Below, piece by piece: positions 7,092-32,117 of a DNA stretch of 33,375 nucleotides (positions are counted from its first letter, which is position 1; each line of letters starts with the position of its first letter). The translations under genes and the position numbers were made by a program. The stretch comes from Acidobacteria bacterium AH-259-O06 (GTDB lineage Bacteria; Acidobacteriota; UBA6911; RPQK01; JADFOI01). Below the pieces are notes generated by a model. It saw only the letters and a list, made by a program, of their open reading frames with translations, was not told where the DNA came from and ran no database searches. Location: positions 1 to 33,375 of the forward strand of contig JALLOM010000005.1 in NCBI GenBank assembly GCA_027717865.1, in the 5' to 3' direction.

Positions 7092-7140
7092 TGGTGGAGA
7101 CGATGGGATTCGAACCCACGACCTCCTGAGTGCGATTCAG
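7092..7140 (-). other. att site: displaced 3' half of tRNA-Ala(CGC) including CCA
   Basis: 49 bp identical to 20313-20361; tRNA homology stops at the 5' side of the anticodon stem. Confidence 0.95.
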
Positions 7141-7269
7141 TTAACGCCTCTGTTTCATATGATTTCACCTGAGTTCAGAGAGTTCCACAACAGATTGATA
7201 TTCTTAGTATTTATCGGTGTTTTATTGTATCATTCTGTTTCAGGAAATATCACTAAAGCACGTGTCAAG

Positions 7270-7289
7270 TGGAACCAATATGGAACCAA
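7270..7289. repeat. E1 putative arm-type site TGGAACCAATATGGAACCAA (left)
   Basis: Identical to 20236-20255; each is a double TGGAACCAA. Confidence 0.8.
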
Positions 7290-7321
7290 AATGAAATTGG
7301 TTCCAAGAAGCAGGAGTGAAA

Positions 7322-8554
7322 ATGCCAACGGCAAAGTTGACTGACAGGCTGCTAAAGAACCTGAAAACGGAAAAAACGGTTGACGAGTTTTGGGACAAGG
7401 CCTTCCCGGGCTCTTTCGGAGTACGAGTGATGAAGGGCGGTCGCAAGACGTTTGTCTTCATGTACAGAACCGGCGGCCGCAGGCGCAGAATGAAGCTGGG
7501 AACTTATCCGGCGCGGAGTCTGGCGGAGGCCAGGCAGCAGGCGTTCGACCTGCTGGGTGCAGTGGAGCGAGGGGAAGACCCGGCGGAAAAGCGCAAGCAG
7601 GAACGCAACGCCGGCACGTTCGAGGAGCTGGCGCAGTTATATCTTGAGATGCACGCCAGACCGCACAAGAAACCGGCCAGCATCAAAGAAGACACCCGCA
7701 TTTTCCACACATACCTACTGCCAGCCTGGGGCAGAAGGAAGTTTCAGTCCATCACGCGCTCGGATGTAATCCGTCTTCTCGATGAAGTTAAGTTCAAACG
7801 CAGGGCGCCGGTAATGGCCAACAGGGTTAAGGCGTTGACAAGTACCATCTTCAATTTCGCGGCCAGGAAGGCGCTGGTGCCGGAGACATTTGCAAATCCT
7901 TGTGCCAATGTCGAGCAGCCGACCAGGGAGAAGAGCCGGGACCGCGTGCTGAGCGACGATGAAATCACGGCACTGTGGAAAGACCTGGAGAACCGAGCGG
8001 AACCTACCGCCTCCATCTACCGGCTAATACTTCTGACGGCCCAGAGGCCGGGGGAAGTGAAGGCCATGCGGTGGAGTAGTATTGATAGTGAGAACATCTG
8101 GACCATCCCGCCCACCGAAACTAAAAACGAGCGGGAACACAAGGTTCCCCTGTCATCTCATGCTCTGGCTGTCATCGAGCAACTACGACCCCTGACTGGG
8201 GATACAGAATTTGTCTTTGCGGCACCCAGTGGTGGACACATCAAGTGGCTCCAAAAGATGAGCCAGCGGATTCAAAAAAACGTGGGCTTCAATTTTCGCC
8301 CCCATGACTTACGCCGAACCTGCGCCACCAACCTCAGCAAACTGGGTGTTGATGATGTCACTATTGCCACAATCCTCAATCACTCATGGCCATTGCGTCA
8401 CATGACGGCCGTGTACAACCGGTGGGAAAGGCTGCCGGAAATGAAGCGGGCGTTGGAGCGTTGGGGAGCACGTCTTGATCAGATCCTCAAAGGAGAGCCG
8501 GGGAAGGTCGTAAATATCGGCTTAAATAAGAAGGTGAGCGCCGAGCACGCCTGA
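7322..8554 (+). CDS. P4-type tyrosine integrase with N-terminal arm-binding (DUF4102-like) domain
   Basis: AKLTDRLLKNLK...FGVRVMKGGRKTFVFMYRTGGRRRRMKLGTYPARSLAEAR; catalytic TAQRPGEV, HDLRRT, LNHSW, YNRW; AGGAG before the ATG at 7322. Confidence 0.95.
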   Translation: MPTAKLTDRLLKNLKTEKTVDEFWDKAFPGSFGVRVMKGGRKTFVFMYRTGGRRRRMKLGTYPARSLAEARQQAFDLLGAVERGEDPAEKRKQERNAGTFEELAQLYLEMHARPHKKPASIKEDTRIFHTYLLPAWGRRKFQSITRSDVIRLLDEVKFKRRAPVMANRVKALTSTIFNFAARKALVPETFANPCANVEQPTREKSRDRVLSDDEITALWKDLENRAEPTASIYRLILLTAQRPGEVKAMRWSSIDSENIWTIPPTETKNEREHKVPLSSHALAVIEQLRPLTGDTEFVFAAPSGGHIKWLQKMSQRIQKNVGFNFRPHDLRRTCATNLSKLGVDDVTIATILNHSWPLRHMTAVYNRWERLPEMKRALERWGARLDQILKGEPGKVVNIGLNKKVSAEHA

Positions 8555-8567
8555 CGGCCAGTGTAAG

Positions 8568-9800
8568 ATGCTGGTCTGCAAAACTATTGTGGAGCGAAGG
8601 ATTACCCTCACGGAAAGCAATGCACCGCGTGTTTTTGGTCGGTTTGTTGAATGGTTGGGGAGAGCCGAGATCAAACAGAGCCTGACATCGGTTCGTCGCG
8701 AACTACAGACAGAGCAAGGTCTGTATTTGAAGAAGTGGGTCGAGCCGAAAAACCGATGGTGGATGGAGCTTTCCAAAGCCGTTGAAATAAACCGAAAAGG
8801 CCAGCGATTTGTGGGTCGGGTCAATGAAATGTCCTGGTTCTTTGAAACAGCAAGCTACATGTCACGGCTCTACCCCGGTATGCCACGTGATAAACGGAAG
8901 GAGTTCCGACAGCGAATTCTCGGCTCCGACAACGTTACGCCCGTCCTGACAGAAATCAACATGGCTGCCCACTTCTGGCAGATGGGTTTCGATTTGGAGT
9001 GGGCGGAACCGAAGACACAGGGGGAGAGAATTCCCGAGTTCATCTGTAAGAGCGCCCAGCTAAGTTACGATGTGGACTGCAAAACCAAAACCGTAGACGC
9101 TGGGCGAATGGTTGCACGGCCCAGCTTCTACAAGCTCGTTGATCTGATAGTAGAACGGCTTCGGAGAAGGGGTCTCCATGGCGATATCCTGATAGTCACT
9201 CCAGATCATCTCCCGAGCAGTGCCGAGTGGCAAGCATCAGTTGTTGACGCCGTTAGCGACCAAGGACCGGGCGGACCGAAGGAGCTCCTACTTGACGACG
9301 GGACATCAATAATTACCTCGTTGGCAACAGAAGATGTCCTTGCCTCAAAGCAAGAAATTGACTCAAGGCTAGCCTCCCGCCAGCGATTTACTCATGCCGC
9401 GGTCCACCCAGTAGACACGATAGGAACAGATTACGTAAATCCTATTATTGTCTATGCACAAAGCCGCAGAAACGATGCGTTTCGGAAAAGCGTACTAAAG
9501 GATTTAAGAGAAGCACGGCGGCAACTTTCCGGAGAACGGGCAGGAATCATCGTGTGCTTCGTACCGGAAGTCGAGGATTTCGGCAAGGTAGCAAGTGAGT
9601 CTGCCCTGAGGGCAGTGGCCGAAAAGTTCTTCGAAAAGCATGCCGCGGATTCCGTTTACGGCGTCACCTTCATTTCCGACAGGAAGATTGAGACAACGAA
9701 TAGGTTTGTCGAGACCCTGTATCCTGCCATAACGTTCTACAATTCCCACTATGATCCGAAATGGGGACGTGCGACACTCTACATGGCAACCTCATTTTGA
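8568..9800 (+). CDS. Unknown protein with candidate PD-(D/E)XK nuclease motif
   Basis: 410 aa; TEINMAAHFWQMGFDLEWAEPKTQGERIPEF...YDVDCKTKT fits an E...PE/D...(D/E)xK pattern. Confidence 0.75.
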   Translation: MLVCKTIVERRITLTESNAPRVFGRFVEWLGRAEIKQSLTSVRRELQTEQGLYLKKWVEPKNRWWMELSKAVEINRKGQRFVGRVNEMSWFFETASYMSRLYPGMPRDKRKEFRQRILGSDNVTPVLTEINMAAHFWQMGFDLEWAEPKTQGERIPEFICKSAQLSYDVDCKTKTVDAGRMVARPSFYKLVDLIVERLRRRGLHGDILIVTPDHLPSSAEWQASVVDAVSDQGPGGPKELLLDDGTSIITSLATEDVLASKQEIDSRLASRQRFTHAAVHPVDTIGTDYVNPIIVYAQSRRNDAFRKSVLKDLREARRQLSGERAGIIVCFVPEVEDFGKVASESALRAVAEKFFEKHAADSVYGVTFISDRKIETTNRFVETLYPAITFYNSHYDPKWGRATLYMATSF

Positions 9801-9955
9801 GCCTACGGATTTACTCCCATCGAACCACCGGCTCACGTAACCTGGGAATCTGGTCAGTCGTGACAGGGCTTCATTGAACCATTTGTGAACAATTTGCTGC
9901 TGGATACCGTATCAGATGAGACCCGGCAAGGGGAACCGCCGGCATCACTGGCATC

Positions 9956-10402
9956 TCACCTAACAAACAGCTTCGTCTCCGTTATCGAACGACGCCCTGG
10001 CCACGCGTGGGTTAGGAGTCGATTCGGATTGCCTTGAAATAATCCGTTTCTTTGGTTGTAGTTCCTGCGCTGTTGCATCTCAGTTTTCCAACATCTCTTG
10101 CAAACCCACACCTCTAAAAGTCTGACCCCGGGGCCGGGGATCTTGGCGCAATCTGAAGACTTCCCGCAGGCAGTGCAGTCCATCCGTTTCTGGAGAATGA
10201 CCGTTATTTTCTCGACCCATCCATTAGGGAAGCGCTTAGCCTCAGACTCATCAACATGGATGACTTGGAGGCGCCGCCGTTTTCTGGGGTCCAATATCTC
10301 CTCCCTGATCCGCCCGCTCTTTAAGATGTAGTGGCCCTCGCTCACGATCCGTACTACTGGCCCGTCCTGTCCTTTTTTCATGTTCGATGTGAAGCGTAGC
10401 AT
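9956..10402 (-). CDS. Hypothetical zinc-ribbon-like protein
   Basis: 148 aa with CTACGKSSDC...WVCKRCW; divergent from the AlpA-primase operon. Confidence 0.5.
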   Translation of the reverse strand: MLRFTSNMKKGQDGPVVRIVSEGHYILKSGRIREEILDPRKRRRLQVIHVDESEAKRFPNGWVEKITVILQKRMDCTACGKSSDCAKIPGPGVRLLEVWVCKRCWKTEMQQRRNYNQRNGLFQGNPNRLLTHAWPGRRSITETKLFVR

Positions 10403-10421
10403 GTCGGTATGAAACGAAATG

Positions 10422-10430
10422 TGATATAAT
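10422..10430 (+). promoter_or_regulatory. Extended -10 (TGATATAAT) upstream of the AlpA/primase operon
   Basis: Matches TGnTATAAT; about 170 nt upstream of the AlpA ATG. Confidence 0.5.
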
Positions 10431-10608
10431 AATGGAAATAGTACATCCGCAGCATCGTCTTTTGCGGTTCTGCGGAAGGAACAGTAAAATTTGAACGGCC
10501 TACGTGGTCAAACGGGGGGAACCCTGAATAAGGGGAGAGCCTAAGAGGCGAGGCTCCCAGAAGACCCGATATGGACCCATGGCACGCCTAATCAAAAGGA
10601 GCCGTGTC

Positions 10609-10812
10609 ATGAGTCTCAAACTCCTCACCCAAAAAGAAGTCAGTAACCTCGTCGGTCTCTCTCGCACAACGATCTGGAGATTGGAGCGCGCAGGCCAATT
10701 CCCGCGCCGTCTCCAGGTTTCCACAAAGGCCGTCCGCTGGAATCAAGCCGAAATCTTCGACTGGATCAATTCTAGGCCATTGGCAGGAACGGAGGCCAAC
10801 CATGGGGTATGA
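10609..10812 (+). CDS. AlpA-family helix-turn-helix regulator/excisionase
   Basis: LLTQKEVSNLVGLSRTTIWRLERAGQFPRRLQVSTKAVRWNQAEIFDWINSR; AAGGAG upstream. Confidence 0.9.
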   Translation: MSLKLLTQKEVSNLVGLSRTTIWRLERAGQFPRRLQVSTKAVRWNQAEIFDWINSRPLAGTEANHGV

Positions 10813-13150
10813 GCCAGTTAAAGCGAATCATTCTGGTGCTTCACTCCCGCAGAATCCTGCCGGTCCTCAAATCACATGCAGCCGAATCTTGGATAGTGCT
10901 CTGGCCTACGCCCGAAAAGGGTGGAAAATCTTCCCCCTGCACTCCCCCGTTGGCGATGGGTGTACTTGCAATAACCCCAAGTGCAAGGCTATCGGTAAAC
11001 ACCCCCGCACACGCAACGGCCACAAGGACGCCACGACGGACCCTGAGCAGATAAAACGCTGGTGGACCCAATGGCCGGCTGCGAATATCGGCATGCCCAC
11101 CGGCAGAGAGTCGGGGATAGTTGTGCTGGATATGGACCCGAGAAACGGCGGCGCTGAGTCTTTTTACCGCCTCCAGGAAGAGCACGGCAGACTGCCCGAT
11201 ACGTTGAGCCAGAAGACGGGAGGGCAGGGGGATCAGTGGTTTTTCCAGTATCCGGCGGAGAGCGTGGTTCGGAGCCGGAACGGAATCCGTCCAGGAATCG
11301 ATATCAAAGCCGACGGGGGTTACGTGGTGTTACCACCGAGCCTCCATGCAAGCGGAAGGCGGTATGAGTGGTTAAGAGACCCGGAGAAAGTGCCGATAGG
11401 TGACTGGCGGCCAGACCTGTTTTCGGATTACGAGGCGAGGCCGGAACAGGCGCGGCCCTTGCCAGAGAAAATCTCCGAAGGCCAGCGGAACACAATCCTC
11501 ACATCCTTAGCTGGATCGATGCGACAGCGAGGGGCCAAAGAAAAAGCAATACTGGCGGCGCTAGAGGTCGAGAACGCCCGGTGTGAGCCGCCGCTTGAAC
11601 GCCGGGAGCTACAAAGCATTGCGGCGAGTATATCAAGATATAAGCCGGGTTCTTCTGAAGCGATCCAGTGGCCGGAGCTGCGTGATCTCCCGGCTGCCAG
11701 GCCGGCGGTTCCATCCTTGCCCGTCGAGATGATACCGGAGGCGCTGCGGCAGTGGATCAGCGACATTGCGGGTCGTGCCTGTATCCCCCTGGAAATGGTG
11801 ATCTGTCCGGCGCTTGTCGGACTCGGCGCGATTGTGGGCCGCTCGGTTGGGATCAAGCCAAGCGAGTTTGATGATTACCTTGTAGTTCCGAATCTCTGGG
11901 GAGGAATCATCGCCAGGCCAGGTGCGATGAAAACCTACGCCATCACTGAGGCACTGAAACCAGTCACTCGGCTAGCGGCACTGGCGCACGAGGAGTATGA
12001 GGCAACGGCAAACCTATCAGATGCTCACATCGACAGGATCAAGAGCGAGATTGACTCCATCAGGGGCGATATGAAAAAGGCGGCCAAGACTGGGGAAGGA
12101 CTCGACGAGCTGGAGGCGGAATTGGGCGAGAAGAAAGCCGAATTGAGGCAGGCGGAGGTGTATGAGAAACGCTACGTGACGCAAGATCCCACGGTGGAGA
12201 AGATCGGGGAATTGCTCAGACACAACCCCCGCGGATTGTTGCTCTCCCGGGATGAGCTGGCTGGCTGGCTTCGGACTCTGGAAAAATCGGGTCGGGAAGG
12301 TGACCGGGAATTTTACCTGGAGGCATGGAATGGTACAGGAAGCTATACCTTCGACCGCATAGGCCGGGGGACCGTTCGCGTTGATGGCCTTTGTCTGTCC
12401 ATCGTGGGCGGAATCCAGCCGGGAAAGTTATCCGCATACATAGAACGTGCAATCCGAGGGGATGCCGGCGCAGATGGCTTACTTCAAAGGCTCCAGGTGA
12501 TGGTGTGGCCGGATGATTTCAGGGACTGGGCAAAACCGGACAGCCATCCTGACGCTGGGGCGAGGGAGCGGGCTTTTCAGGTGTTCAAAACACTGGCCGA
12601 GTTGCACATCGAGCCCCAGAGCGGCGGGGAGATCCCCTTCCTGAGATTTGACCCTGAAGCACAAGTGCTTTTCGACGCCTGGAGAGGCGAACTGGAAAAG
12701 AGGCTCCGAGGGGACGAACTGAAGAACACGCCAGCCTTCGAGGCGCATCTGAGCAAATACCGTTCCTTGATGCCTTCGCTGGCGCTTCTGTTTCACCTGA
12801 TCCACGGCGGATCTCATGATGTTTGTCTCGATTGTGCCCGATTGGCGGCTGGGTGGTGCGAGTATCTGGAGCACCACGCAAAGAAAATCTATGCTGAGGA
12901 ACTGGCACCAGGACTCGGCGGCGCTCATGCTCTTGCAGTAAAAATTCGGCAGGGAGCCGTCAAGGACGGTGACAGTATCCGTGACACCTACCGGCATAAA
13001 TGGGGAGGATTGACAAACGCCGAGAGTGTGTCGGCTGCACTTGAGGTTCTCCACGATGCCGGATGGATAAGAATCGAGACTGTCCAAACCGGCGGCAGAG
13101 ATTCCGAAATCATCCGGCTGCATCCGGAACTTGGAGGCGAAAAGCAATGA
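10802..13150 (+). CDS. Bifunctional primase/polymerase (PrimPol) fused to DUF3987-like helicase domain
   Basis: ALAYARKGWKIFPLHSP...KHPRTRNGHKDATTD...WPAANIGMPTGRESGIVVLDMDPRNGG; C-terminal LLLSRDELAGWLRTLEKSGREGDREFYLEAWNG. Confidence 0.9.
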   Translation: MGYEPVKANHSGASLPQNPAGPQITCSRILDSALAYARKGWKIFPLHSPVGDGCTCNNPKCKAIGKHPRTRNGHKDATTDPEQIKRWWTQWPAANIGMPTGRESGIVVLDMDPRNGGAESFYRLQEEHGRLPDTLSQKTGGQGDQWFFQYPAESVVRSRNGIRPGIDIKADGGYVVLPPSLHASGRRYEWLRDPEKVPIGDWRPDLFSDYEARPEQARPLPEKISEGQRNTILTSLAGSMRQRGAKEKAILAALEVENARCEPPLERRELQSIAASISRYKPGSSEAIQWPELRDLPAARPAVPSLPVEMIPEALRQWISDIAGRACIPLEMVICPALVGLGAIVGRSVGIKPSEFDDYLVVPNLWGGIIARPGAMKTYAITEALKPVTRLAALAHEEYEATANLSDAHIDRIKSEIDSIRGDMKKAAKTGEGLDELEAELGEKKAELRQAEVYEKRYVTQDPTVEKIGELLRHNPRGLLLSRDELAGWLRTLEKSGREGDREFYLEAWNGTGSYTFDRIGRGTVRVDGLCLSIVGGIQPGKLSAYIERAIRGDAGADGLLQRLQVMVWPDDFRDWAKPDSHPDAGARERAFQVFKTLAELHIEPQSGGEIPFLRFDPEAQVLFDAWRGELEKRLRGDELKNTPAFEAHLSKYRSLMPSLALLFHLIHGGSHDVCLDCARLAAGWCEYLEHHAKKIYAEELAPGLGGAHALAVKIRQGAVKDGDSIRDTYRHKWGGLTNAESVSAALEVLHDAGWIRIETVQTGGRDSEIIRLHPELGGEKQ

Positions 13151-13599
13151 GCAGTTTTCAGTCCAAGTGGATGGAATTTTCACCACGAACGTCCAAAGAA
13201 CGTGTTGACAAAAGTGACAAAAGCCCTTCTGTCAGTTTTGTCAAGTCGATTTCAGAGCATGGTCAGCAAAAAAACGGCAAGCAGGCCGACCATTCCTGGC
13301 AGGACTTCTACCCGGACTTGGATCCGGCGGACTTTGAAATTGAGGAGACGGCTGGCGGCATATCAGGAAGAAAGGCGAAGGGGAACGTGGCCGGGACGGT
13401 CGGTTTCTTTATTCCCTGGGAGAGACTGAAGGAAGGACCAGCCGGCCAGGTCGAAGACCCCGGGGAGTGGGAGACTTCCGAGCTGCGCATTCCCAGCCAG
13501 GTGAAAGCCAATTTTGTTGACGTGTGGAGCCTGTGGCGGAGGCGGTGCGGTGTGGGCTTCCGCTTTCGCTTCCTGCGGTGCGAAAGGGCCGGCGGATAA
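13147..13599 (+). CDS. Hypothetical protein coupled to the primase gene
   Basis: ATGA overlap with the primase stop; 150 aa. Confidence 0.55.
   Translation: MSSFQSKWMEFSPRTSKERVDKSDKSPSVSFVKSISEHGQQKNGKQADHSWQDFYPDLDPADFEIEETAGGISGRKAKGNVAGTVGFFIPWERLKEGPAGQVEDPGEWETSELRIPSQVKANFVDVWSLWRRRCGVGFRFRFLRCERAGG
13205..13244. repeat. Iteron-like/inverted repeat cluster just downstream of the E1 primase gene
   Basis: TGACAAAAG twice in tandem (13206-13223); TTGACAAAAGTGACA versus TGTCAGTTTTGTCAA is a 15-bp inverted repeat with one mismatch. Confidence 0.6.
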
Positions 13600-13697
13600 G
13601 CCAATGAGAGATGCAAACCTGCACCGAAGGACACAGACCACCGGATAACATCCAACAGCTTTGTCCAAGTTGAGCGGCCATCAGCGATAATCACTCG

Positions 13698-13841
13698 ATG
13701 AAATCACTGTATCGAGGCCATCGTTTTCCACCCGAAATCATCAGCCACGCCGTTTGGCTCTACTACCGCTTCACCCTCAGCTTTCGAGACGTGGAGGATC
13801 TGCTGGCGGAACGAGGGATAAACGGGTCAAGAGAGGGTTAA
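13698..13841 (+). pseudogene. IS6-like transposase N-terminal remnant
   Basis: MKSLYRGHRFPPEIISHAVWLYYRFTLSFRDVEDLLAERGI, truncated at about 13820. Confidence 0.85.
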
Positions 13842-14235
13842 GAAGCGGGTGAGGCTGAGTTGGAGGGAAAATGGAAGTCCCAGAAGATGATCCATCGATT
13901 CTACCTATTCCTGGGTCTCGTGGACTGGTTTCCAGACGGGCGTTCCATGGGTGGCGAGAGTTGAGAGCAGGGTTCGAAGTAGTGCCAAGATCATGTCGGC
14001 CAATGATGAGCGAGGTCGGGCCTAAGTTCAATGAGCTCAGGCGGTACGGAATAAATAGAAACATTTCCACGAAGGACGCCCGGCTGTGCATTACTCCGGA
14101 CTCGTCTTTCACCTCGCCAGCTAAGATGCCTACCAAAATATTGATTGTCTTGAAAATAAGTGGTCACAAGAATATCCTGGTTGCATAAGCATTACAGAAG
14201 CTTAATTTTGGAGCGTCTGTAACTTCAAAAAGTCG

Positions 14236-23773: not shown

Positions 23774-24519
23774 GCCGCTGTTTCCCTTCGTGTTTGTGGC
23801 TTCTCATGCTCCTCGGCGGTTTCCTCGGGGGATAGAATTTCCGCCAAAGGCTTCACCTGGCCGTCGCGTAGAAAAGTACTTATATTTTCGAGGCCGGCGC
23901 CCTCGACGTGATCGAAATTCAACAGTCGCAGATGCATCACCAAATGTGCGCTTAAAGTCCTGCGCAGGCTCAGATACGGACGCCGCAACTTCACACCTCG
24001 AGTGTCCTCGATGAACTCGAGGATTTCGCCCATGGGGCGCGCCAGCGCCAGGGCTTTCTCGTATAGTTCCAAAAGCTCCACCACGATCCTGTCAATAGCC
24101 GGAGTGAGTGCAAGAATCTCCCTAAATCCGCGTTCGTACTGTTCACGTAGCTCGCGTTGGTGCGCCTCTGCTGACTCGTTTCGAAGTGTGTTTAATTTGC
24201 CTTCGCACTCAGTAACGGCGATTCGTAAGTCTTCACGCTCGCGACCGGCAAGAAACCAAGAATCATTTAGTTTCGCCAACTCTTTTTGGGCCTTCTCACT
24301 CCCAACTTTGGCCATTAGGACAATGTTTTTACGCTTCTGTTCAGCCTCGGCTTCAACTCGCTCCGCCTGCTCGAGGTCGGCTCGAAGTTTTTGTTGCTTC
24401 ATTGTCCAGTCTTGGATGTTTTTCTTAATCGTTGCTGATTTTTGTATTCTCATTCCTTTCCCCTCTTCTGAATTGTCGCCTGCGGGCGACTTTTTCTCAC
24501 TGTTCGTAACTCCTATCAA
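23770..24519 (-). CDS. Coiled-coil protein of unknown function
   Basis: 249 aa, Lys/Glu-rich helical N-terminal half, coupled overlaps on both sides. Confidence 0.65.
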   Translation of the reverse strand: MIGVTNSEKKSPAGDNSEEGKGMRIQKSATIKKNIQDWTMKQQKLRADLEQAERVEAEAEQKRKNIVLMAKVGSEKAQKELAKLNDSWFLAGREREDLRIAVTECEGKLNTLRNESAEAHQRELREQYERGFREILALTPAIDRIVVELLELYEKALALARPMGEILEFIEDTRGVKLRRPYLSLRRTLSAHLVMHLRLLNFDHVEGAGLENISTFLRDGQVKPLAEILSPEETAEEHEKPQTRRETAA

Positions 24520-24881
24520 ATGCTCCTGGCGAATCTCCTAAAAGCGACGATGTCGAAACTGACCGCACTCGGAATCGAGGCTCCGCTGCTGCAATTGCCC
24601 CAGCCGATCCGAAGCGCGTTTGCCGCATTGACCCGATAATCGGCCATGAACAATCCGGAAGCCAAAGCCGTTTTAGGGTGAACGATCACCAGATCACCAC
24701 TGGCCAGGCTCAGGGCCGTTAGGCCGGTTGTATAGGATCTTTCCTCGATCGAGTTGGCGGCGACGCTTGAAGTTTCCGGATTGATCGTAACCCCGCTGCC
24801 AAGACGCATGCCGCTCGTGCCGAGGGAATCCAGGCCCAGATCACCAAACAGAACCAAGCCCATAGATAATCTATTAGGCAT
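24516..24881 (-). CDS. Candidate small virion-associated protein
   Basis: SGVTINPETSSVAANSIEERSYTTGLTALSLASGDLVIVHPKTALASGLFMADYRVNAANALRIGWGN resembles short beta-rich phage proteins; inference from memory. Confidence 0.55.
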   Translation of the reverse strand: MPNRLSMGLVLFGDLGLDSLGTSGMRLGSGVTINPETSSVAANSIEERSYTTGLTALSLASGDLVIVHPKTALASGLFMADYRVNAANALRIGWGNCSSGASIPSAVSFDIVAFRRFARSI

Positions 24882-24961
24882 TTTAATTTTTCTCCTTTGC
24901 GGTTGTCTGTTGTTTTTTCATTCTTCTTCTTTTTTCGTCTCTTTGATTTTCATGAGTTCCA

Positions 24962-26440
24962 TTAGTCTCCGCCCCCGAGTGTCCAGTCCGGCGCGTTGTG
25001 TACTTTCCAAGCAGGCACGTAAGGCGCAAGCGGGATGCTCAACCTAGCCGGATCATAGCCACCCTGCTGCTGGTTCGCCAGCACCAGCGCGCCGGCGGCG
25101 GCGTTAATCACATCATCCCGCCCACCGGGCCCGTGGTCGATTGAGTCTTTGCCGCTCCTGCTCGTCCGACGTTCCAGATTACACAACTGAGAAATCAGTC
25201 TTTTATGGTGCAGCAACTCGATTTGCTCGCTATTCAAGAGCGGTAAAAATGCTATATAAATTTCACTCTTCGTCTTTTCGCTGGTTCTGTACTCAACCCC
25301 ATGAGATCTGAACTGCTCTCGCGGCCATTGCCCGGCGTATCTGTCGCCATGGATTGTGCTGATCCGATAGCGCTTGAGCAATTCGCAAAATTCAGAGACT
25401 ACCTGCTTTGGCGAAAACGGCGGCACCCTCTCGCGCACACAGTCAAGGGCAAGCTTGCCATTCTCACGGTGTGCAATCCCCAGGGTCATACTGTCCTGGC
25501 TGCCTCCGCTTGGATCACAGAATCCGAAGTATCGGATGCTCTCCAGAGGCGGCAACTCACGCCGATCAGGGAGAACCACGGCCTCGACCGCCTCGCTGTT
25601 GACGAATGATTCAATATCCCGCCGAAACTCGGCCAGCCACTCGGCCCGGGCTGCCGATTCGTCCTCTTCCAGCGCCTTCTGAATGACCGACTCAGGCACC
25701 GTGGGATTCATGTCTCGCGTCTCGCCCTGCCAGACCAGAATTTCACCGTCCTTGCCGAAATAGTTTTTGTAGGCTTTCCAAAGTTCGCCACGCCGAGCGT
25801 ATGGAGAGCTGAGAGCCAATAGCAGACTACCGGGAACTGTGGCCATACCGGGACGCAGAGCATTCAGGATTTCGGTGTCAGGATTCGCGGACTCCTCACT
25901 TCTCCAAAACGCTACTTCATCGAGCAGCGCAGCAATGATAGAGTAACCCCTTGTCGTCCTGTATGACGCCGTGTGGACCTCGATCACAATCCGGTTGTTC
26001 AGCTCGATTGACTCCTTCGTTTTGTTCGCGACCATGGCCGATAGCATGGGCACTCCGTCCAAAAAGCCAGAGACGTATCTGAGAATTACCCTCGCCTGCT
26101 TCCGATCCGCAGCAATCACCATAACGGTCCCGACCTCACCCGGCGCCAAGTGCTTCGAGTAGTCCTTAAAACAGGCCAAGAACACGGCCGTAAGCGCCGC
26201 TATGAGGCTTTTGCCGCCTCGCCTGCCCACTACCAGCCAGCCCTCGGAAACCGACGCCGGCGGCTTTTCTCGGCCGGTAAAGCGCTGGAGTGTCTCAAGG
26301 TCAGTCTTGCCCAGCTTCAACCCGAATAGCGCCTTGAGAAACACGCGCCAATTGCCCCAAGACTTACCCTTAAACCAGGACTTGAAGAGCGCCGGGTCGT
26401 TCATGGCGTCGATGATGGTGAGTGATTTAACAGTTTTCAT
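24962..26440 (-). CDS. Phage terminase large subunit
   Basis: GWLVVGRRGGKSLIAAL (Walker A), IIAALLDEVAFW (Walker B), YFGFCDPSGGSQDSMTLGI and GGRDDVINAAAGAL nuclease motifs. Confidence 0.9.
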   Translation of the reverse strand: MKTVKSLTIIDAMNDPALFKSWFKGKSWGNWRVFLKALFGLKLGKTDLETLQRFTGREKPPASVSEGWLVVGRRGGKSLIAALTAVFLACFKDYSKHLAPGEVGTVMVIAADRKQARVILRYVSGFLDGVPMLSAMVANKTKESIELNNRIVIEVHTASYRTTRGYSIIAALLDEVAFWRSEESANPDTEILNALRPGMATVPGSLLLALSSPYARRGELWKAYKNYFGKDGEILVWQGETRDMNPTVPESVIQKALEEDESAARAEWLAEFRRDIESFVNSEAVEAVVLPDRRELPPLESIRYFGFCDPSGGSQDSMTLGIAHRENGKLALDCVRERVPPFSPKQVVSEFCELLKRYRISTIHGDRYAGQWPREQFRSHGVEYRTSEKTKSEIYIAFLPLLNSEQIELLHHKRLISQLCNLERRTSRSGKDSIDHGPGGRDDVINAAAGALVLANQQQGGYDPARLSIPLAPYVPAWKVHNAPDWTLGGGD

Positions 26441-26505
26441 TAGACTTCCAGTAATGCCCGGAGTTTGTTTGACAACTCGATACACTCTTCAGGAGTCACG
26501 CTCAT
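26440..26505 (-). CDS. 21-aa micro-ORF coupled to the terminase gene
   Basis: MSVTPEECIELSNKLRALLEV, stop overlaps the terL start (TAATG). Confidence 0.35.
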   Translation of the reverse strand: MSVTPEECIELSNKLRALLEV

Positions 26506-26508
26506 TTG

Positions 26509-26994
26509 TTAATCCTCTTCGGGCCCGTATTCCCTTGCCAGGTAAGTCTGTAAGTCCTCAGCCGGCCGGGACCGCCTCTCCATGCCCAGCGTCACGAGAC
26601 ACCGCCGTTGCTCTGCGAGGAAAACCGAAAGCCTCGCTATTCCTGGTTGCAAATCCCACACATTATTCTGCTTGTTTACCTGAACAGCAGCCTCCGTTCT
26701 TAATAGGTAGTGCCATATCAGTAGCTCTGCCATTCGTGCCGATTTCCAATTGGCCACCATGAGCTTTTCCGCGCCGCTCATGTACGCTTCCCCGCCCTTA
26801 TCAGAAATCAATTCGCCGGCCTCAAGGTCTGCCAGCGCCGCGACCCGCTCCAGGTAAGCCGGTAGTGGCTTCCCTACCTCTAACCTCTTCAATGCCGGCA
26901 GTGCGCTCTTAGCCCGGTTTAAATTCCCTGGCTGCCCTCCAGGCTTTCTCCTTGCGTTCGTCTCACTCACGACTCTGCTTTCTCCAAAATCCAC
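26509..26994 (-). CDS. Candidate terminase small subunit
   Basis: 161 aa directly upstream of terL; begins with RRKPGGQPGNLNRAKS; position-based inference. Confidence 0.55.
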   Translation of the reverse strand: MDFGESRVVSETNARRKPGGQPGNLNRAKSALPALKRLEVGKPLPAYLERVAALADLEAGELISDKGGEAYMSGAEKLMVANWKSARMAELLIWHYLLRTEAAVQVNKQNNVWDLQPGIARLSVFLAEQRRCLVTLGMERRSRPAEDLQTYLAREYGPEED

Positions 26995-27019
26995 TCAAAA
27001 ACGACCTTTTTACGATTCA

Positions 27020-27042
27020 TTCACCTACGCTATTCACTACAC
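27020..27042. repeat. Inverted copy of the E2 arm-type repeat
   Basis: TTCACCTACGCTATTCACTACAC is the reverse complement of GTGTAGTGAATAGCGTAGGTGAA, one inserted base relative to 31934. Confidence 0.7.
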
Positions 27043-27290
27043 TCGTCTACCGCCTCACCCAAACCCTTATTCACACTGGCTTTCATAGACAAGGCGATTG
27101 TTTTCATATCATGTGCCTTATCACGTTCGTCCCTGGAGAATCGGTGGAGTGCAAGGCGTATTTCTGTGCGCCCCCACTTTTCAAAGTTGACGATAAGTTG
27201 ACGAAGTTGACGATAAGACGACTTTCCTAGGTTGTTTCTACATTCCGTCTCTTCTTGAGAGCTAATAGGGAAAGTCATCATATCGTCCAC
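27030..27290 (-). CDS. Hypothetical small protein
   Basis: 86-aa ORF downstream of the primase; overlaps iteron-like repeats. Confidence 0.4.
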   Translation of the reverse strand: MDDMMTFPISSQEETECRNNLGKSSYRQLRQLIVNFEKWGRTEIRLALHRFSRDERDKAHDMKTIALSMKASVNKGLGEAVDECSE

Positions 27291-27311
27291 TTTTCGGGGT
27301 TATCGTCAACT
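27185..27311. repeat. Iteron-like cluster (AGTTGACGA), candidate E2 replication origin
   Basis: AGTTGACGA at 27185, 27196, 27205; inverted TCGTCAACT at 27303; near match TCGTCCACT at 27283. Confidence 0.55.
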
Positions 27312-28853
27312 ATTTTGAAGTTTGACTCGCTTGCGTGCAGCGTTGCCACCGGCAGCAGAAGTTTTTTCAAATCCCTTCTCTTCCAACTGGAATGCGAACT
27401 TCCGTGAAGTTACTGGCTCCTCTGTGCGTTCCTTGCACCACTGGCTGTAATCCTCGTAGAGTTTAGCGAACAACGTAACAGCCACAGCATCGCTTTCGCA
27501 TCGTTCTTCAATCCATTGATGAAGAACATCCATCTCTTTACGGTACTCCTGAGTAGCTTCTGCGACGGCTTGGCAGTCCCCGAAACCTTCTCGTTGCCAC
27601 TCAAGACAACCTTGCACGATCCATGTTAGAATCCCCGCTCGCTCCTGCCAGAGTTGCTCGTCTAAATCGTCAACTCTCCGGCCATTTTCCTTTGTAAAAA
27701 CTGCGCAAAACGGAATGAGTGCGATGCGTCGCCACATTGCCAAACTGGTGTCTTCGACAATGGGGCGATGGTTGGTAGCTAACCACAATTTGTGCGTTGG
27801 CCAGAACTCGAAATAGTCGCGATTCATAAATCTGGCCTTAACGGGATCCCGGCCGGTGAGAGATTTCACCCGAGTGGCGTCCAGGCGCCGGTTCTCAGCG
27901 GTTTCAATGGCGGAACAGAATCGAGCCCCAAACAGGTCCGCCAGGATGGTGGGATGCGTGTCACCTCGTTTGTCTCGGCTGAGGAGCAGATCCGGAGCCA
28001 CTGCCTGAGCGTAATCTCCCAAGACTCGACGTACAGTGGACAGCATGGTTGACTTCCCATTACTGCCTGTGCCCCAGCAGATGATGAGGTCGTCTTCACG
28101 GGTGTTGCCGGTAGCCGAGTAGCCGGTTCGCCTTTTCACATACCGAATGAGCGTCGCATCCCCAGGGAAAAGTTCCTGCTGGAATTTCATCCAGCGGGGG
28201 GCATCAGTTTCGGGACGATAAACAGTGCCGGCTAGCTTAGTGAAATATAGGTCTGGCGAATGGGGGGACAGTTCTCCAGTTCGCAGATCGACCACCCCAT
28301 TTCCACAGTTCAAAAGCCAGGGATCGGTGTCAAAAATGCTAGGTTTGGCTAGAAGGTATCCCTTCGCCAAATCAATTACGTCCCGTAATCTCCGGCGACT
28401 CTGAATCTTCAGTGCCAACTTTGTGAGTTCTTTCCTTTGTGCCGCTTTTTTTAGTGCCTTTTGGGTGAAGAACTTGAAGAGCAGTTCCCCGGCGAGGCGA
28501 CAGGTTTCATGCCCACCCAGATCCTTGGCCCATCGCTGACCGTCGTAGGTAAGCCACCCCCACTGGGGCACGAAAAGACAACGACCGATGAGCAGGTCGG
28601 CAAGTAGTTGCGCGTTTGCCAAGTCTGTGAAGGATTCGCCTACTTTAATTTGGGTTTGCGCCGATCTGATGTTTATCCCCACACTCTCTTGCGTCGCATC
28701 CGGGGTTGATCTCACGATCTCACGGAATTGGTCCCAAGTGCCGTCCTTCTCTGGTTCTAGAATCTTTTCCGTGTCCTGTTTCTCGGGGGGCTTCAACCCC
28801 GACGCTCTTAGCACGTTTTTGTAATCCTCAATGTCAGCCAATTCCGTTGTCAC
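27306..28853 (-). CDS. D5/P4-family primase-helicase
   Basis: ICWGTGSNGKSTMLSTVRRVLGDYA, LFGARFCSAIETAENRRLD, KLWLATNHRPIVEDTSLAMWRRIALIPF. Confidence 0.93.
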   Translation of the reverse strand: MTTELADIEDYKNVLRASGLKPPEKQDTEKILEPEKDGTWDQFREIVRSTPDATQESVGINIRSAQTQIKVGESFTDLANAQLLADLLIGRCLFVPQWGWLTYDGQRWAKDLGGHETCRLAGELLFKFFTQKALKKAAQRKELTKLALKIQSRRRLRDVIDLAKGYLLAKPSIFDTDPWLLNCGNGVVDLRTGELSPHSPDLYFTKLAGTVYRPETDAPRWMKFQQELFPGDATLIRYVKRRTGYSATGNTREDDLIICWGTGSNGKSTMLSTVRRVLGDYAQAVAPDLLLSRDKRGDTHPTILADLFGARFCSAIETAENRRLDATRVKSLTGRDPVKARFMNRDYFEFWPTHKLWLATNHRPIVEDTSLAMWRRIALIPFCAVFTKENGRRVDDLDEQLWQERAGILTWIVQGCLEWQREGFGDCQAVAEATQEYRKEMDVLHQWIEERCESDAVAVTLFAKLYEDYSQWCKERTEEPVTSRKFAFQLEEKGFEKTSAAGGNAARKRVKLQNS

Positions 28854-29107
28854 TGTTCGAAAACCTTCTTGGGGACTCCGGGGTATCCGTCATAGAATTT
28901 TTTGGACTGCTTCAACTTCGCCTCATATTTGTCCAGCTCATCCCAGATAGTCTTTTCCGTTACCTGAATTCGGCTCTGCTGCAAAACATATGCATGAAAC
29001 TTGGTTAATTCCTCCATACGCTCTGCCATTTCATTGACCCTATCAAGCGCTTGATCCAACTGAACTGCCAGATTGATAACAAAACCCTCATCGACCTTAT
29101 CCCTCAT
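28850..29107 (-). CDS. Hypothetical helical protein
   Basis: MRDKVDEGFVINLAVQLDQALDRVNEMAERMEELTKF...; overlaps both neighbours. Confidence 0.55.
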   Translation of the reverse strand: MRDKVDEGFVINLAVQLDQALDRVNEMAERMEELTKFHAYVLQQSRIQVTEKTIWDELDKYEAKLKQSKKFYDGYPGVPKKVFEQ

Positions 29108-29321
29108 TTGCTCGCTCCAGATTCTCCACCGCCTCCTGAACCGAAACCCCTTCCAGCTGTTCCCACCACTCATCCAGTTCGTCTTTGGAAAAGTAGATCC
29201 TTGAACCTATCCGTCTGAACGGGACGGTTCTTCTATCCACGCAAGCTCGTAATGCCTTTTCGGTTTTATCTAGAAACCGCGCTGCTTTCTTGAGATCCAT
29301 AAGCTCTGCCTGGTCGCTCAT
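29097..29321 (-). CDS. Excisionase/MerR-like helix-turn-helix protein
   Basis: LMDLKKAARFLDKTEKALRACVDRRTVPFRRIGSRIYFSKDELDEWWEQ. Confidence 0.85.
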   Translation of the reverse strand: MSDQAELMDLKKAARFLDKTEKALRACVDRRTVPFRRIGSRIYFSKDELDEWWEQLEGVSVQEAVENLERANEG

Positions 29322-29583
29322 TTCGAATCGTCCCTGACATTCCTGAAGAGGTCAGATGCGGGCGCCTTCATAAGCTTCGCGATGAGTTCAGCTTCGGTTG
29401 CGGTGGGCTGGACCTTGCCGTTCCCTTTTCGATATTGTTTTTTGCCCGTGGCGAAACCCTCTTCGAGAGGTAGTCGATTACTAATTTTACGAGCTGGGGA
29501 TCGTTGACGGCTACGATTGGGAGGGCAGAATCGACATCCTCGCCCTCAAGAAGTGTAACGTAGAAATTCGGCTTTTTGTGCAT
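29318..29583 (-). CDS. Small protein requiring a -1 frameshift at A_AAA_AAC (29437-29443); 0-frame alone ends at 29368
   Basis: 0 frame MHKKPNFYVTLLEGEDVDSALPIVAVNDPQLVKLVIDYLSKRVSPRA; -1 frame after the heptamer KKQYRKGNGKVQPTATEAELIAKLMKAPASDLFRNVRDDSK*, ending in ATGA overlap with the next gene. Confidence 0.5.
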
Positions 29584-29629
29584 CACCCTCTTAAGGGCCG
29601 AAAAAACCGAAAAACGTATACAAGGGAAA

Positions 29630-30526
29630 CTAGATTTTTTTGAGGTAGGTCAAATTGCGGTGGATTGCCTGCTTTTCACTGGATGGCCTAGTCCGATTTT
29701 CTCGGGCTCGTTCTTTACTCGTAAAGCCTTGCGCCCAGAGATTCATTCGCCGTCGATCCAATGGCTTTAGTTTTGAAAGCATCTCTCCGAAGAGAATTTT
29801 GCGCTCGGGGTCTTGGATGGTCGGATCTTCGACTTCTATTATTAGGCGATCATCATCTTGCGATGATACTTTGTCGCGCCAAAAGCCTTCCTCAGAGAAG
29901 TAAAAATTCTCGTGCCCATTTGGGCATATCCCTTCTTGGCAGGGTTGCCTGCAGAGATTGCATTTGAGCTTGGAATCCTTGCGTGCCCGCTTATCCAGAA
30001 GCAATTTAAAGTATCGCACAACTTCCGGCCACAGCCATTTGTGAAAGTCTGCGACATTCAAATCTAGAGCATCACCCGAATTCTCCAAGGCCATTTTTAC
30101 CGCATTCATCGGGCAGAATTCTGTGACATACCTGACCAGGCTCAGATTGGCCCATAGGGGGTTTCCGGTCAGTGTTGTTTCATACCTTCTAAGATTTCGT
30201 ACCGCATCGCGCACCTCTGCGCTCTCGTGGGCACGGCGATTGTTGATAATGTATGGAATGCCTATTTTTCGTTGAATTTCTGGCCGAGTAATCAATGTCA
30301 CGATGTAAGGATCATCATCGGGGCGCAGCGTACCCTCGTGTATCATTAGCCCCATTGGGGAGCCGGTAGGCCAAGAGATTTCTGGAGTTTGAAGTACGAC
30401 GGGATTGAGCTCACACCCTCCAGAGTAAACTACCCGAAGATCGGGCAGAACCTCGGAATAGTGGCGCGGGCTTCTGCTAAGCAGTCGCTCGTGCTCAAAA
30501 TCCTGAGGTGTAATGATGGTTGCCAT
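29630..30526 (-). CDS. Unknown protein with zinc finger and C-terminal sigma-region-4/HTH-like segment
   Basis: CNLCRQPCQEGICPNGH; LKPLDRRRMNLWAQGFTSKERARENRTRPSSEKQAIHRNLTYLKKI; GGGAGG upstream of the ATG at 30526. Confidence 0.7.
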   Translation of the reverse strand: MATIITPQDFEHERLLSRSPRHYSEVLPDLRVVYSGGCELNPVVLQTPEISWPTGSPMGLMIHEGTLRPDDDPYIVTLITRPEIQRKIGIPYIINNRRAHESAEVRDAVRNLRRYETTLTGNPLWANLSLVRYVTEFCPMNAVKMALENSGDALDLNVADFHKWLWPEVVRYFKLLLDKRARKDSKLKCNLCRQPCQEGICPNGHENFYFSEEGFWRDKVSSQDDDRLIIEVEDPTIQDPERKILFGEMLSKLKPLDRRRMNLWAQGFTSKERARENRTRPSSEKQAIHRNLTYLKKI

Positions 30527-30596
30527 CAGCCTCCCACGCTGCCCCCACATTTAAAGGCCCAGCCGGGCGTGCTTCCCGCCTTATCAGGTTGGTGCT

Positions 30597-30893
30597 TTAC
30601 TTTTTTCTTGCCCTCTTCTTCGACGATTTCTTCTTTGGCAATCTCTTTCCCTCTGGATTAACCTTGCTCGCGTCAACTACCAAAGAGTTCTCCGATTTAA
30701 ACCGTTGAAGTCCCACCTTGACAACAGGAACCACAGCTGCTGGCAACAAATCGTCGTCCGTAGAACCAATATTTGCAGCTCTGATTCCAAATTCCATGTA
30801 AATACCCCAGAGGCCGTCATGGATATCTAATTTCCTTACCAGGGCTTCAGCAACCTCCTTATAGCTAAAAATATATTGTTTTATCTCAGCCAT
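30597..30893 (-). CDS. Hypothetical protein with basic C-terminus
   Basis: MAEIKQYIFSYKEVAEALVRKLDIHDG...LPKKKSSKKRARKK. Confidence 0.55.
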   Translation of the reverse strand: MAEIKQYIFSYKEVAEALVRKLDIHDGLWGIYMEFGIRAANIGSTDDDLLPAAVVPVVKVGLQRFKSENSLVVDASKVNPEGKRLPKKKSSKKRARKK

Positions 30894-31573
30894 GTTCCAC
30901 ATCCTCTCGACAAGAAAGGTGTAGCTTCCCCATATGCCTCCCCTTGCACTCCACCAACACCTCCCACCAGTTCGAATGCTTCCACATTTGGTTCTCCTGC
31001 TATTTCTTCCCAGTGAAGCTCGTTTGATTGCAACCGCACCTGATTTGTTGGAGGTTGCGGAGATGCTAGCGGTAGGCCCTCAAGTTGTTGCCCAGTACCG
31101 TAAGTTAAAGCGAAAACCTGTGAAAAAAGTTTCTGTTGATAAAGGACTTGAAAGTTGGCAAGCATTCTGAATGTTTCGCTCGCTTGTTGTTCAAGTTCCT
31201 GTAGAAAATCGTAGGAACCAGCTCTGGTCGCAATACTAGTTACTATGAATTGATTCAAACTTACACCGTCACGCTGTGCCATCTTCACCGCCTGCTTGTG
31301 AAGACTCTTTGGAAGGCGCAAGGCGACCCGCCCAGAGTAACCATCCGATGAAAATGGTGCAGGAATTTTGAGCTCTTGTTCCAAAGCCGACTTTACCCAA
31401 TTAAAAGCCGCCTCTTCTAAATTACAATAGGCCTCTTCGCAGGCATTTCCTTCAGAAAAACACCCACGGAATTCGAGAATCTCCGCTGTGTAGCCACCGC
31501 GTTCATCAGGTCTTAAGACTCTGGAATATGGAAGTTGGAGAATGCTTTTTACCTTTTCATCGGACGCTTTCAT
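30881..31573 (-). CDS. hicB: HicB-like antitoxin, extended
   Basis: VLRPDERGGYTAEILEFRGCFSEGNACEEAYCNLEEAAFNWV plus ribbon-helix-helix-like GRVALRLPKSLHKQAVKMAQRDGVSLNQFIVTSIA. Confidence 0.85.
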   Translation of the reverse strand: MKASDEKVKSILQLPYSRVLRPDERGGYTAEILEFRGCFSEGNACEEAYCNLEEAAFNWVKSALEQELKIPAPFSSDGYSGRVALRLPKSLHKQAVKMAQRDGVSLNQFIVTSIATRAGSYDFLQELEQQASETFRMLANFQVLYQQKLFSQVFALTYGTGQQLEGLPLASPQPPTNQVRLQSNELHWEEIAGEPNVEAFELVGGVGGVQGEAYGEATPFLSRGCGTWLR

Positions 31574-31576
31574 TTT

Positions 31577-31867
31577 TTATTTGTCCTCCAAGTTGAAAAG
31601 TTCTTCTTCCCAAGTTAACACGTCGTCATCGAAAACATCGCAAATGCTGTGAACCGTTCCTTTTTTCAAGACTCCATGATGGGGTATGCTCAAAGGAATC
31701 CAGCCTTTCTCCTCGTTCACAAACGTGGGTTCTTTCCCCTTCGAATCATCTCTCTTCCGCCCTAGTTTCGTTGCAATACTCACAAGCTTACGATGATGAA
31801 TGTTTCCAGCACCCTGCCGTGCCTGCGCTATCTGTTTCTTGATCTTCTCCAGCTTCTTCGAGGTCAT
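31577..31867 (-). CDS. hicA: HicA-like toxin
   Basis: LEKIKKQIAQARQGAGNIHHRKLVSIATKLGRKRDDSKGKEPTFVN...PLSIPHHGVLKKGTVHSICDVFDDDV directly upstream of the hicB-like gene. Confidence 0.75.
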   Translation of the reverse strand: MTSKKLEKIKKQIAQARQGAGNIHHRKLVSIATKLGRKRDDSKGKEPTFVNEEKGWIPLSIPHHGVLKKGTVHSICDVFDDDVLTWEEELFNLEDK

Positions 31868-31890
31868 GATAGCGTATATGATATCATGAC
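31863..31890. promoter_or_regulatory. Putative HicAB operator, 9-bp inverted repeat overlapping the hicA start codon
   Basis: GTCATGATA (31863-31871) ... TATCATGAC (31882-31890). Confidence 0.6.
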
Positions 31891-31933
31891 GTCAAGAGTG
31901 TTTGTCAGTTTCGCATGGGCGAGCAATTCTGGC

Positions 31934-31955
31934 GTGTAGTGAATAGCGTAGTGAA
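31934..31955. repeat. E2 putative arm-type repeat GTGTAGTGAATAGCGTAGTGAA (right)
   Basis: Identical to 20442-20463. Confidence 0.75.
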
Positions 31956-31960
31956 ATGCA

Positions 31961-32000
31961 CGGGGAAAACAGGGGAATTGTGGGGAACTGTGGGGAAAGC
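31961..32000. repeat. Four 10-bp phased repeats nGGGGAAnnn
   Basis: cggggaaaac aggggaattg tggggaactg tggggaaagc. Confidence 0.7.
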
Positions 32001-32038
32001 CTCGACTGGCTCAAATCCTTACCAATCAAGGCTTTCCC
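31993..32038. repeat. 10-bp inverted repeat GGGAAAGCCT...AGGCTTTCCC at the E2 right end
   Basis: Arms 31993-32002 and 32029-32038; followed by TTTGCTTT. Confidence 0.55.
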
Positions 32039-32072
32039 TTTGCTTTCAGGCAGTTAGAAAAAGGTCCGAAAA

Positions 32073-32117
32073 CTGAGTGCGATTCAGGCGCTCTTCCGAA
32101 CTGAGCTACGTCCCCAC
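32073..32117 (-). other. att site: displaced 5' half of tRNA-Ala(CGC)
   Basis: 45 bp identical to 20347-20391, ending at the anticodon stem-loop. Confidence 0.95.

Follow-up and report, generated by a model that had tools for sequence, protein, structure and literature searches.

Stacked integrative elements appear to restore opposite halves of one tRNA-Ala(CGC) gene in an acidobacterium

The only complete tRNA-Ala(CGC) gene in a contig of Acidobacteria bacterium AH-259-O06 lies between two integrative elements, which we call E1 and E2, and exact halves of the same gene lie at their outer ends. We consider it very likely, from the sequences, that these stacked elements restore opposite halves of the tRNA, that the middle gene is a chimera of an E1 3' half and an E2 5' half, and that the E2 integrase belongs to a clade that carries the integrase-proximal half of its target. 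The architecture, the tRNA halves, the site free of E1 and E2, the recurrence of the arrangement, and the clade can all be read directly from the DNA.

Results

Three copies of tRNA-Ala(CGC) and the elements between them

The window (the whole stretch of DNA that was analyzed, 33,375 nucleotides) is an entire contig (C445; JALLOM010000005.1) of a fragmentary MAG, which comprises 508 contigs and is 72.6% complete (GCA_027717865.1). Its features are given in Table 1.

Table 1. Features of the window. Coordinates are positions in the window; a dot means that no strand applies.
Feature	Position	Strand	Evidence
Probable E0 (third element, restores the 3' half), right end	6624..7091	.	flank homology and arm sequence
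E0 arm-type repeat TTTGTTACCCCAGGCGTTACCC	7012..7033	+	shared with integrase-bearing end in G001
Displaced tRNA-Ala(CGC) 3' half	7092..7140	-	49/49 identity with 20313-20361
E1, 3'-restoring integrative element, ~13.2 kb	7141..20346	.	bounded by tRNA copies and own arm repeats
E1 arm-type repeat GGAACCAATATGGAACCAA, left end	7271..7289	+	
E1 tyrosine integrase, 412 aa	7316..8554	+	Pfam Phage_integrase 3e-20
E1 primase-polymerase / DUF3987 protein	10802..13150	+	Pfam 1e-76 and 2e-46
E1 helicase-nuclease, defence-like, 1929 aa	14236..20025	+	Pfam MTES_1575, AAA_11, AAA_12; PADLOC PDC-S37 5e-67
E1 arm-type repeat GGAACCAATATGGAACCAA, right end	20237..20255	+	
Complete tRNA-Ala(CGC), attachment site of E1 and E2	20313..20389	-	ARAGORN; cloverleaf-like fold
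15-bp common core CTGAGTGCGATTCAG, anticodon stem-loop minus outer pair, putative crossover region	20347..20361	-	
E2, 5'-restoring, satellite-like integrative element, ~11.7 kb	20362..32072	.	bounded by tRNA copies and own arm repeats
E2 tyrosine integrase, 388 aa, frame intact	20380..21546	-	Pfam 8e-26
E2 arm-type site TTCACTACGCTATTCACTACAC, integrase-proximal, within integrase coding sequence	20442..20463	-	
E2 terminase large subunit	24962..26485	-	PHROG 1e-21
E2 D5-type primase-helicase	27306..28853	-	Pfam D5_N 1e-27; PHROG 4e-107
E2 HicB-like and HicA-like pair	30881..31867	-	HicA under its curated cut-off
E2 arm-type site TTCACTACGCTATTCACTACAC, distal end	31934..31955	-	
5' half of the chromosomal tRNA-Ala, displaced by E2	32073..32117	-	45/45 identity with 20347-20391
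Probable promoter of the original tRNA, TTGTCC-16-TAAAAT, stranded beside displaced half	32130..32157	-	
Sodium:solute symporter (SSF transporter), chromosomal right flank	32264..33307	-	Pfam; adjoins tRNA-Ala(CGC) in G001, G007, G010

The original prediction described a complete tRNA in the middle, exact halves on both sides, and a 15-bp core common to all three copies, and this layout was borne out by ARAGORN, which found a single tRNA in the window, and by sequence matching. Apart from the core, the three copies have no sequence in common. The 45-nt match on the right consists of 43 nt of the tRNA and 2 bases upstream of it. A 22-bp stretch of the 3' half, used as a probe, had two exact matches in the window and none in shuffled sequences, so the matches between tRNA halves are not due to chance. 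Judging from these matches, the 3' half of the middle tRNA is from E1 and its 5' half is from E2.

E1 has the form of a 3'-fragment tRNA island, in which an integrase gene is accompanied by a 3' fragment that has been displaced to a position downstream of the complete tRNA. Relatives of its integrase in a sister species (G001) and in G012 are 81-84% identical. E2 has the form of a 5'-fragment island as defined by Islander: the integrase gene lies within the element, the displaced 5' fragment lies upstream of the complete tRNA in the same orientation, and the tRNA is uninterrupted in a relative that lacks the element (contig C323 of the sister species). The stop codon of the E2 integrase (TAG, 20380-20382) is within the tRNA. 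The protein has the R, K, HxxR, and Y residues of a tyrosine recombinase, and these positions (R219, K247, H309, R312, and Y345) are invariant in the alignment of the E2 family. The two E2 arm sites match each other without mismatches, and shuffled sequences yielded no such pair.

The site without E1 and E2 in relatives

If E1 and E2 were absent, 7092-7140 was predicted to be joined to 32088-32117, and this junction is found in contig C323 of the sister species: positions 6999-7140 of the window align directly into 32088-32400, and the complete tRNA is identical. The right flank of the sister species is 97.5% identical to the window, and the SSF transporter is also beside tRNA-Ala(CGC) in two further genomes (G007 and G010). 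Because synteny of the right flank is kept in all three relatives, it is the copy at 32073 that represents the chromosome's own, displaced 5' half. It follows that E2 brought a 5' half and E1 a 3' half, and that the middle gene is element-borne in either order of arrival. The junction and the synteny thus uphold what had been proposed about the origin of the two halves. When we searched the window's own genome for the host's left flank of the array, we did not find it.

We propose that two, and probably three, elements stacked at tRNA-Ala(CGC) via crossover in the anticodon stem-loop, presumably catalyzed by the tyrosine integrases that they encode. E1 (and the partly visible E0) would carry a 3' half, and insertion would leave a complete gene to the right of the element and the displaced 3' half to its left. 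E2 would carry a 5' half that immediately follows its integrase gene and supplies the stop codon. Insertion of E2, whether before or after E1, would rebuild the tRNA at the left end of the element and would strand the chromosomal 5' half and its promoter at the right end, 11.7 kb away. If either E1 or E2 alone were lost, a complete tRNA gene should remain.

Alternative explanations

The outer halves have the core in common and could recombine directly, so E1 and E2 might instead be one composite element with a complete internal tRNA that inserted once through the 15-bp core; a similar succession of an E1-type end, a tRNA, and an E2-type integrase end occurs at tRNA-Pro in the same genome. This seems very improbable, as there are two intact and distantly related integrases, each of the two families of arm repeats brackets one element, each element has its own complete att arrangement, and gene orientation and GC skew reverse at the tRNA. 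Also, E1-family integrases are found at other 3' halves without E2-type integrases, and vice versa. We rejected a single composite element because of the two integrases, the two arm families, and their separate occurrence. The middle tRNA, as the sole complete copy, could be taken for the original chromosomal gene, with decayed duplicates or solo attachment remnants on either side, but the probability of this is close to nil: both outer halves are exact and end at the core, chromosomal DNA on the right is found past the outer 5' half, and the gene in the sister species joins the outer flanks, which rules this explanation out. The contig could also be an assembly chimera in which separate integrated loci were joined across the tRNA repeat, given that the MAG is so fragmented and that related elements lie at other tRNAs of the same genome. 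We think that this is highly improbable, as a repeat of 45-49 bp is rather short to cause a misjoin, the two flanks are precisely re-joined in the sister species, and independent assemblies from several phyla contain the same junctions between integrase and tRNA.

The preferred reading of opposed, stacked elements leaves the number of elements to be considered. An array of two elements had been predicted; E1 and E2 were both upheld, but arm sequences in the sister species indicate that the array probably has at least three members. The DNA that precedes 7092 probably forms one end of a third element, E0, and the outer 3' half at 7092 probably belongs to E0 and not to the chromosome, as the sister species has the same arms together with a left end that bears an integrase and is on a different contig. 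Specifically, its contig C251 has a peptidase gene, ~40 bp that match 7050-7091, the 3' half, a TTTGTTACCCC..GTTACCC arm, and an integrase (a left element end), while in C323 the arm precedes the complete tRNA (a right element end). Positions 6624-7091 are 88.7-93.7% identical to DNA beside the same tRNA in the sister species, and a variant form of the arm repeat lies upstream of an integrase in L052. The assignment of E0 is based on this flank homology and one arm site, with the left end of E0 being outside the contig. The DNA to the left of 7092 might instead be chromosomal, with no E0; the contig left of 7092 contains neither an integrase nor a further 3' half that we could find, and GC content is ~62-66% at 1001-3500 versus ~50-54% farther right. 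Given the arrangement of the two contigs of the sister species, we consider this unlikely.

The E2 integrase clade carries 5' halves in several phyla

To find relatives in genome contigs, we used an alignment as the query (a query with the single integrase returned no match). The E2 integrase falls in a clade with support of 100/100 and with members in Acidobacteriota, Nitrospirota, and Methylomirabilota. The integrase genes of these relatives terminate either inside the 5' end of a tRNA gene or a short distance upstream of it, and the tRNAs concerned are those for Pro, Lys, Arg, Met, Ser, and Thr. Within the clade, there were 11 5'-side and 3 3'-side cases; outside it, the tree had 1 and 6, respectively (Fisher p 0.016). 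We found displaced 5' halves at five further loci (G025 Arg, L157 Ser, L176 Ser, G026 Lys, and G002 Lys), and at G026 Lys the distal arm is close to the displaced half. L157 is from Nitrospiraceae and L176 is from Nitrospira. Both ends of a 5'-type element are on one contig only in the window, G025, L157, and L176. Where the tRNA is reversed (G034 Glu and L169 Gly), it is the 3' half that is displaced. Furthermore, all six integrase frames that enter a tRNA stop at or before the anticodon loop, within the carried half. As read from these junctions, the carried half would always be the integrase-proximal one, usually the 5' half, and this rule explains both the 5' and the 3' cases in one clade.

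In the same genome, an E1-type end, a tRNA, and an E2-type integrase end adjoin again at tRNA-Pro (710 bp, 72%); we searched this locus for a displaced 5' half and found none. Another potential junction of this kind (C33 of G004, a 94-bp match) has a host-like promoter upstream and lacks any E2-type integrase that we could find, and we therefore left it out of the count. Among the matches listed in a search of phage records, the integrases were only ~25-29% identical. Beside a Nitrospira integrase in L166 there is a tRNA 5' half that stops at the anticodon loop, the form expected of a free attP site.

Promoters of the restored tRNAs

In a promoter scan with the E. coli matrix, 0 of 19 restored tRNAs beat shuffled sequences at 0.05, versus 6 of 10 tRNAs with host upstream DNA. 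With the same matrix, this contrast weakens if the three Glu loci are collapsed into one (Mann-Whitney p 0.059), and five of the six displaced 5' halves likewise have no clear promoter. The absence of host-type promoters at the restored tRNAs suggests that they may be expressed from the integrase transcript, and they would then depend on transcription of the integrase gene. A promoter match inside the E2 integrase gene (20666-20639) is weak, and we did not use it as evidence.

Discussion

Restoration of the 5' half is seldom met in bacteria, according to a review, and in the part of the Islander report drawn on here (PMC4383910) there are 159 5'-fragment islands and 3,760 3'-fragment islands. 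The original prediction that a 5'-restoring element is less common therefore holds for that catalogue (159 of 3,919), but 5' restoration is the rule in the E2 integrase clade, and the arrangement seen here recurs in the lineage. Like E2, the 5' islands of Islander have a tyrosine integrase, crossover at the anticodon, a complete tRNA at one end, and a displaced 5' fragment at the other. That part of the report links 5' islands to no particular integrase clade and mentions no case of a 5' island and a 3' island at a shared tRNA. It also gives 125 tandem arrays of at least two islands at one tRNA, four of them with at least three. Those arrays resemble this one in having serial elements at one tRNA, each with an integrase and a displaced fragment; compared with the tandems as described there, the members here restore opposite halves, and the tRNA that they share lies between them and is apparently built from two elements. 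Overall, 5'-restoring islands were already known and are rare.

The archaeal pTN3/TKV4 integrases also use a carried 5' half as the attachment site. In those archaea, the reconstituted tRNA is parted from its original promoter, and its expression is ascribed to the promoter of the integrase (PMC8371274, PMC5495485). The integrase gene of pTN3 is disrupted by integration; that of E2 remains intact, since its reading frame terminates within the half that the element carries. E2 also resembles phage satellites such as PICIs, as it is ~12 kb and has an integrase, a D5-type primase-helicase, a terminase, and no recognized capsid or tail genes. It differs from PICI-type satellites in having a large-terminase gene, and the likeness is in gene content alone.

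A clade that follows a 5' rule makes it possible to test what determines which half an integrase carries and how a tRNA is expressed after its promoter is lost to an element. Programs that search for islands on the assumption of a 3' fragment would place the ends of 5'-type elements wrongly. More tentatively, and we lean against it for now, this integrase clade may habitually take tRNAs from the 5' side so that they lose their promoters and come under the control of the integrase operon in an addiction-like arrangement, with opposed elements stacking around a shared tRNA that is wholly owned by the elements. If this is true, the host's supply of the tRNA would depend on the element, which would stabilize the element in an addiction-like manner.

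Two elements at one tRNA gene

ARAGORN calls one tRNA in the window, and exact repeats of 49 and 45 bases preserve a 3' half and a 5' half of it on the outside, as the original prediction described. The three copies have 15 bases in common, which are the anticodon stem-loop minus its outer pair. E1 (restoring the 3' half) and E2 (restoring the 5' half) each carry their own exact direct repeat just within their two termini, which matches expectation for arm-type integrase sites. The sign of GC skew flips at the tRNA.

tRNA copies and elements in the window, and displaced tRNA halves (fragments left at the far end of an element) at related loci
Feature	Position	Strand or direction	Details
tRNA-Ala(CGC), complete	20313-20389	minus	ARAGORN
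tRNA-Ala(CGC) 3' part	7092-7140		exact repeat, 49 bases; sequence identity
tRNA-Ala(CGC) 5' part plus two upstream bases	32073-32117		exact repeat, 45 bases; sequence identity
E1	7141-20346		integrase at left end, primase-polymerase/DUF3987 protein, 1929-aa helicase-nuclease
E1 helicase-nuclease	14236-20025		very large; resembles candidate defence proteins (PDC-S37, Mokosh, Hhe)
E2	20362-32072	opposite to E1	integrase, HTH protein, terminase large subunit, D5-type primase-helicase, HicAB-like pair
Displaced 5' half, G025 Arg	10 kb away		39/40 identical
Displaced 5' half, L157 Ser			43/43 identical
Displaced 5' half, L176 Ser			41/43 identical
Displaced 5' half, G026 Lys	another contig		40/40 identical
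Displaced 5' half, G002 Lys	another contig		37/38 identical
Displaced 3' half, G034 Glu		tRNA reversed relative to integrase	42/42 identical
Displaced 3' half, L169 Gly		tRNA reversed	48/48 identical; outside supported clade

An E2-type arm site also lies within the right end of E1 (20156-20177), 3' of the restored tRNA (the gene rebuilt with an element-carried half); the middle junction thus resembles a complete E2 attP of arm, core, and arm. In the sister species G001 (L093, about 10239), another sits 3' of the restored tRNA within the right end of E0, a probable third element; a fourth, inverted with 3 mismatches, is mid-E2 in the window (27021-27042). A motif near TTGTTTTCAATAACTTACAGC borders tRNAs on element-occupied sides in the window and at L026, L036, L096, and L102 (3' side for 3'-type elements, 5' side for some 5'-type elements).

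The site without E1 and E2

On G001 contig C323, window sequence 6999-7140 continues directly into 32088-32400 through an identical complete tRNA, which is the predicted junction (7092-7140 joined to 32088-32117). A symporter gene adjoins this tRNA in G001, G007, and G010, as at the right flank of the window. Together, the junction and neighbourhood indicate that the 5' half at 32073 belongs to the chromosome, E2 having supplied its own, as had been proposed; the earlier interpretation of the locus is right in its core. The probable original promoter (TTGTCC-16-TAAAAT) remains with the displaced 5' half.

A double TTACCCC repeat lies in the 93 bp left of 7092, and in the same position on C323. 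Another G001 contig, C251, has a peptidase gene, about 40 bp in common with 7050-7091, a 3' half, a variant TTACCCC-type repeat, and an integrase with 34% identity to the one in E1. We read C251 as the left end and C323 as the right end of a single 3'-restoring element; the left flank of the window is then likely the right end of E0, whose copy of the 3' half would be the one at 7092. The left end of E0 is absent from the window contig.

Gene content

No capsid gene was recognised in the annotation of E2, and its gene set indicates a phage-satellite-like element. A distant match to its terminase (24965-26485) occurs in Virus Rctr16k, a small (16.7-kb) virus from an enrichment culture. The HTH-protein gene region (22048-22163) contains a 32-bp repeat twice, each copy ending in AAGTGGAACATTTGTTCCA; these are possibly operator-like palindromes.

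The G001 element at the same tRNA has E2-related terminase-region genes (L093 2286-6072 versus window 22913-26952) and an E1-like integrase end, which suggests that integrase modules were swapped between satellite backbones. Immediately before the E2 integrase start, 69 bp (21547-21615) are 98.6% identical in this element (L093 8797-8865), and other common genes are about 70% identical; the segment may have been exchanged recently or may be a regulatory site under conservation.

The E2 integrase clade

Relatives of the E2 integrase were drawn from whole genomes and named MAGs (Acidobacteriota, Nitrospirota, Methylomirabilota, and others). Their genes end inside the tRNA 5' end or no more than about 100 bp before it, on the same strand; the tRNAs beside E2-type ends are Ala, Pro, Lys, Arg, Met, Ser, and Thr. 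The clade has 100/100 support (maximum-likelihood tree). By the tRNA end beside which the integrase gene ends, it includes 11 5'-side members, 3 3'-side members (all tRNA-Glu(CTC), in a single subclade, support 100/98), and 4 without an adjacent complete tRNA, versus 1 5'-side and 6 3'-side outside it (Fisher p 0.016). Two of those four (L160 and L166) have, behind the integrase, what looks by eye like a tRNA-Ser 5' half breaking off near the anticodon loop, as it would in a free attP or a lost junction.

Whether the displaced half is 5' or 3' follows tRNA direction (table), which indicates that the carried half is always the integrase-proximal one. An E2-type double arm (TTTCACTACGATTTTCACTACA) lies within about 200 bp of the displaced Lys half in G026 (compare 31934 in the window). 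All six integrase frames that enter a tRNA stop at or before the anticodon loop, so integration would leave the integrase whole, unlike in the archaeal element pTN3. For pTN3-like integrases of archaea, the half used is the 5' one, and expression of the tRNA is attributed to the integrase promoter; 5'-half use is seldom met in bacteria, according to a review (PMC8371274; PMC5495485).

In a scan with an E. coli matrix, 0 of 19 restored tRNAs showed a promoter upstream that outscored 95% of shuffles, versus 6 of 10 tRNAs whose upstream DNA is the host's (one of the six passes 0.05 narrowly, p_shuf 0.03). The Mann-Whitney p was 0.012, rising to 0.059 when the three Glu loci counted as one. This contrast suggests that restored tRNAs may be expressed by read-through from the integrase gene. 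Among six displaced 5' halves, only the window's has a clear promoter.

Opposed elements at other tRNAs

Islander (a database of tRNA-targeted islands) lists 3760 islands with a 3' fragment versus 159 with a 5' fragment, and 125 arrays of two or more islands (PMC4383910). Both types at one locus had been called unusual. A limited literature search found no description of 5' and 3' islands on one shared tRNA, but the arrangement is not unique to the window. A second tRNA gene of this genome, tRNA-Pro(GGG) on C132, is flanked 5' by an E2-type integrase fragment and 3' by an E1-type end, and this junction aligns with the window junction over 710 bp; more Pro 3' halves are on other contigs. In G002, tRNA-Lys has a broken E2-type integrase on one side; from the other, an integrase of a different family faces it. 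These two loci indicate that opposed stacking recurs in this family of bacteria. tRNA islands of this kind are already known and the window locus is a variant form; what makes it of broader use is the clade to which the integrase of E2 belongs.
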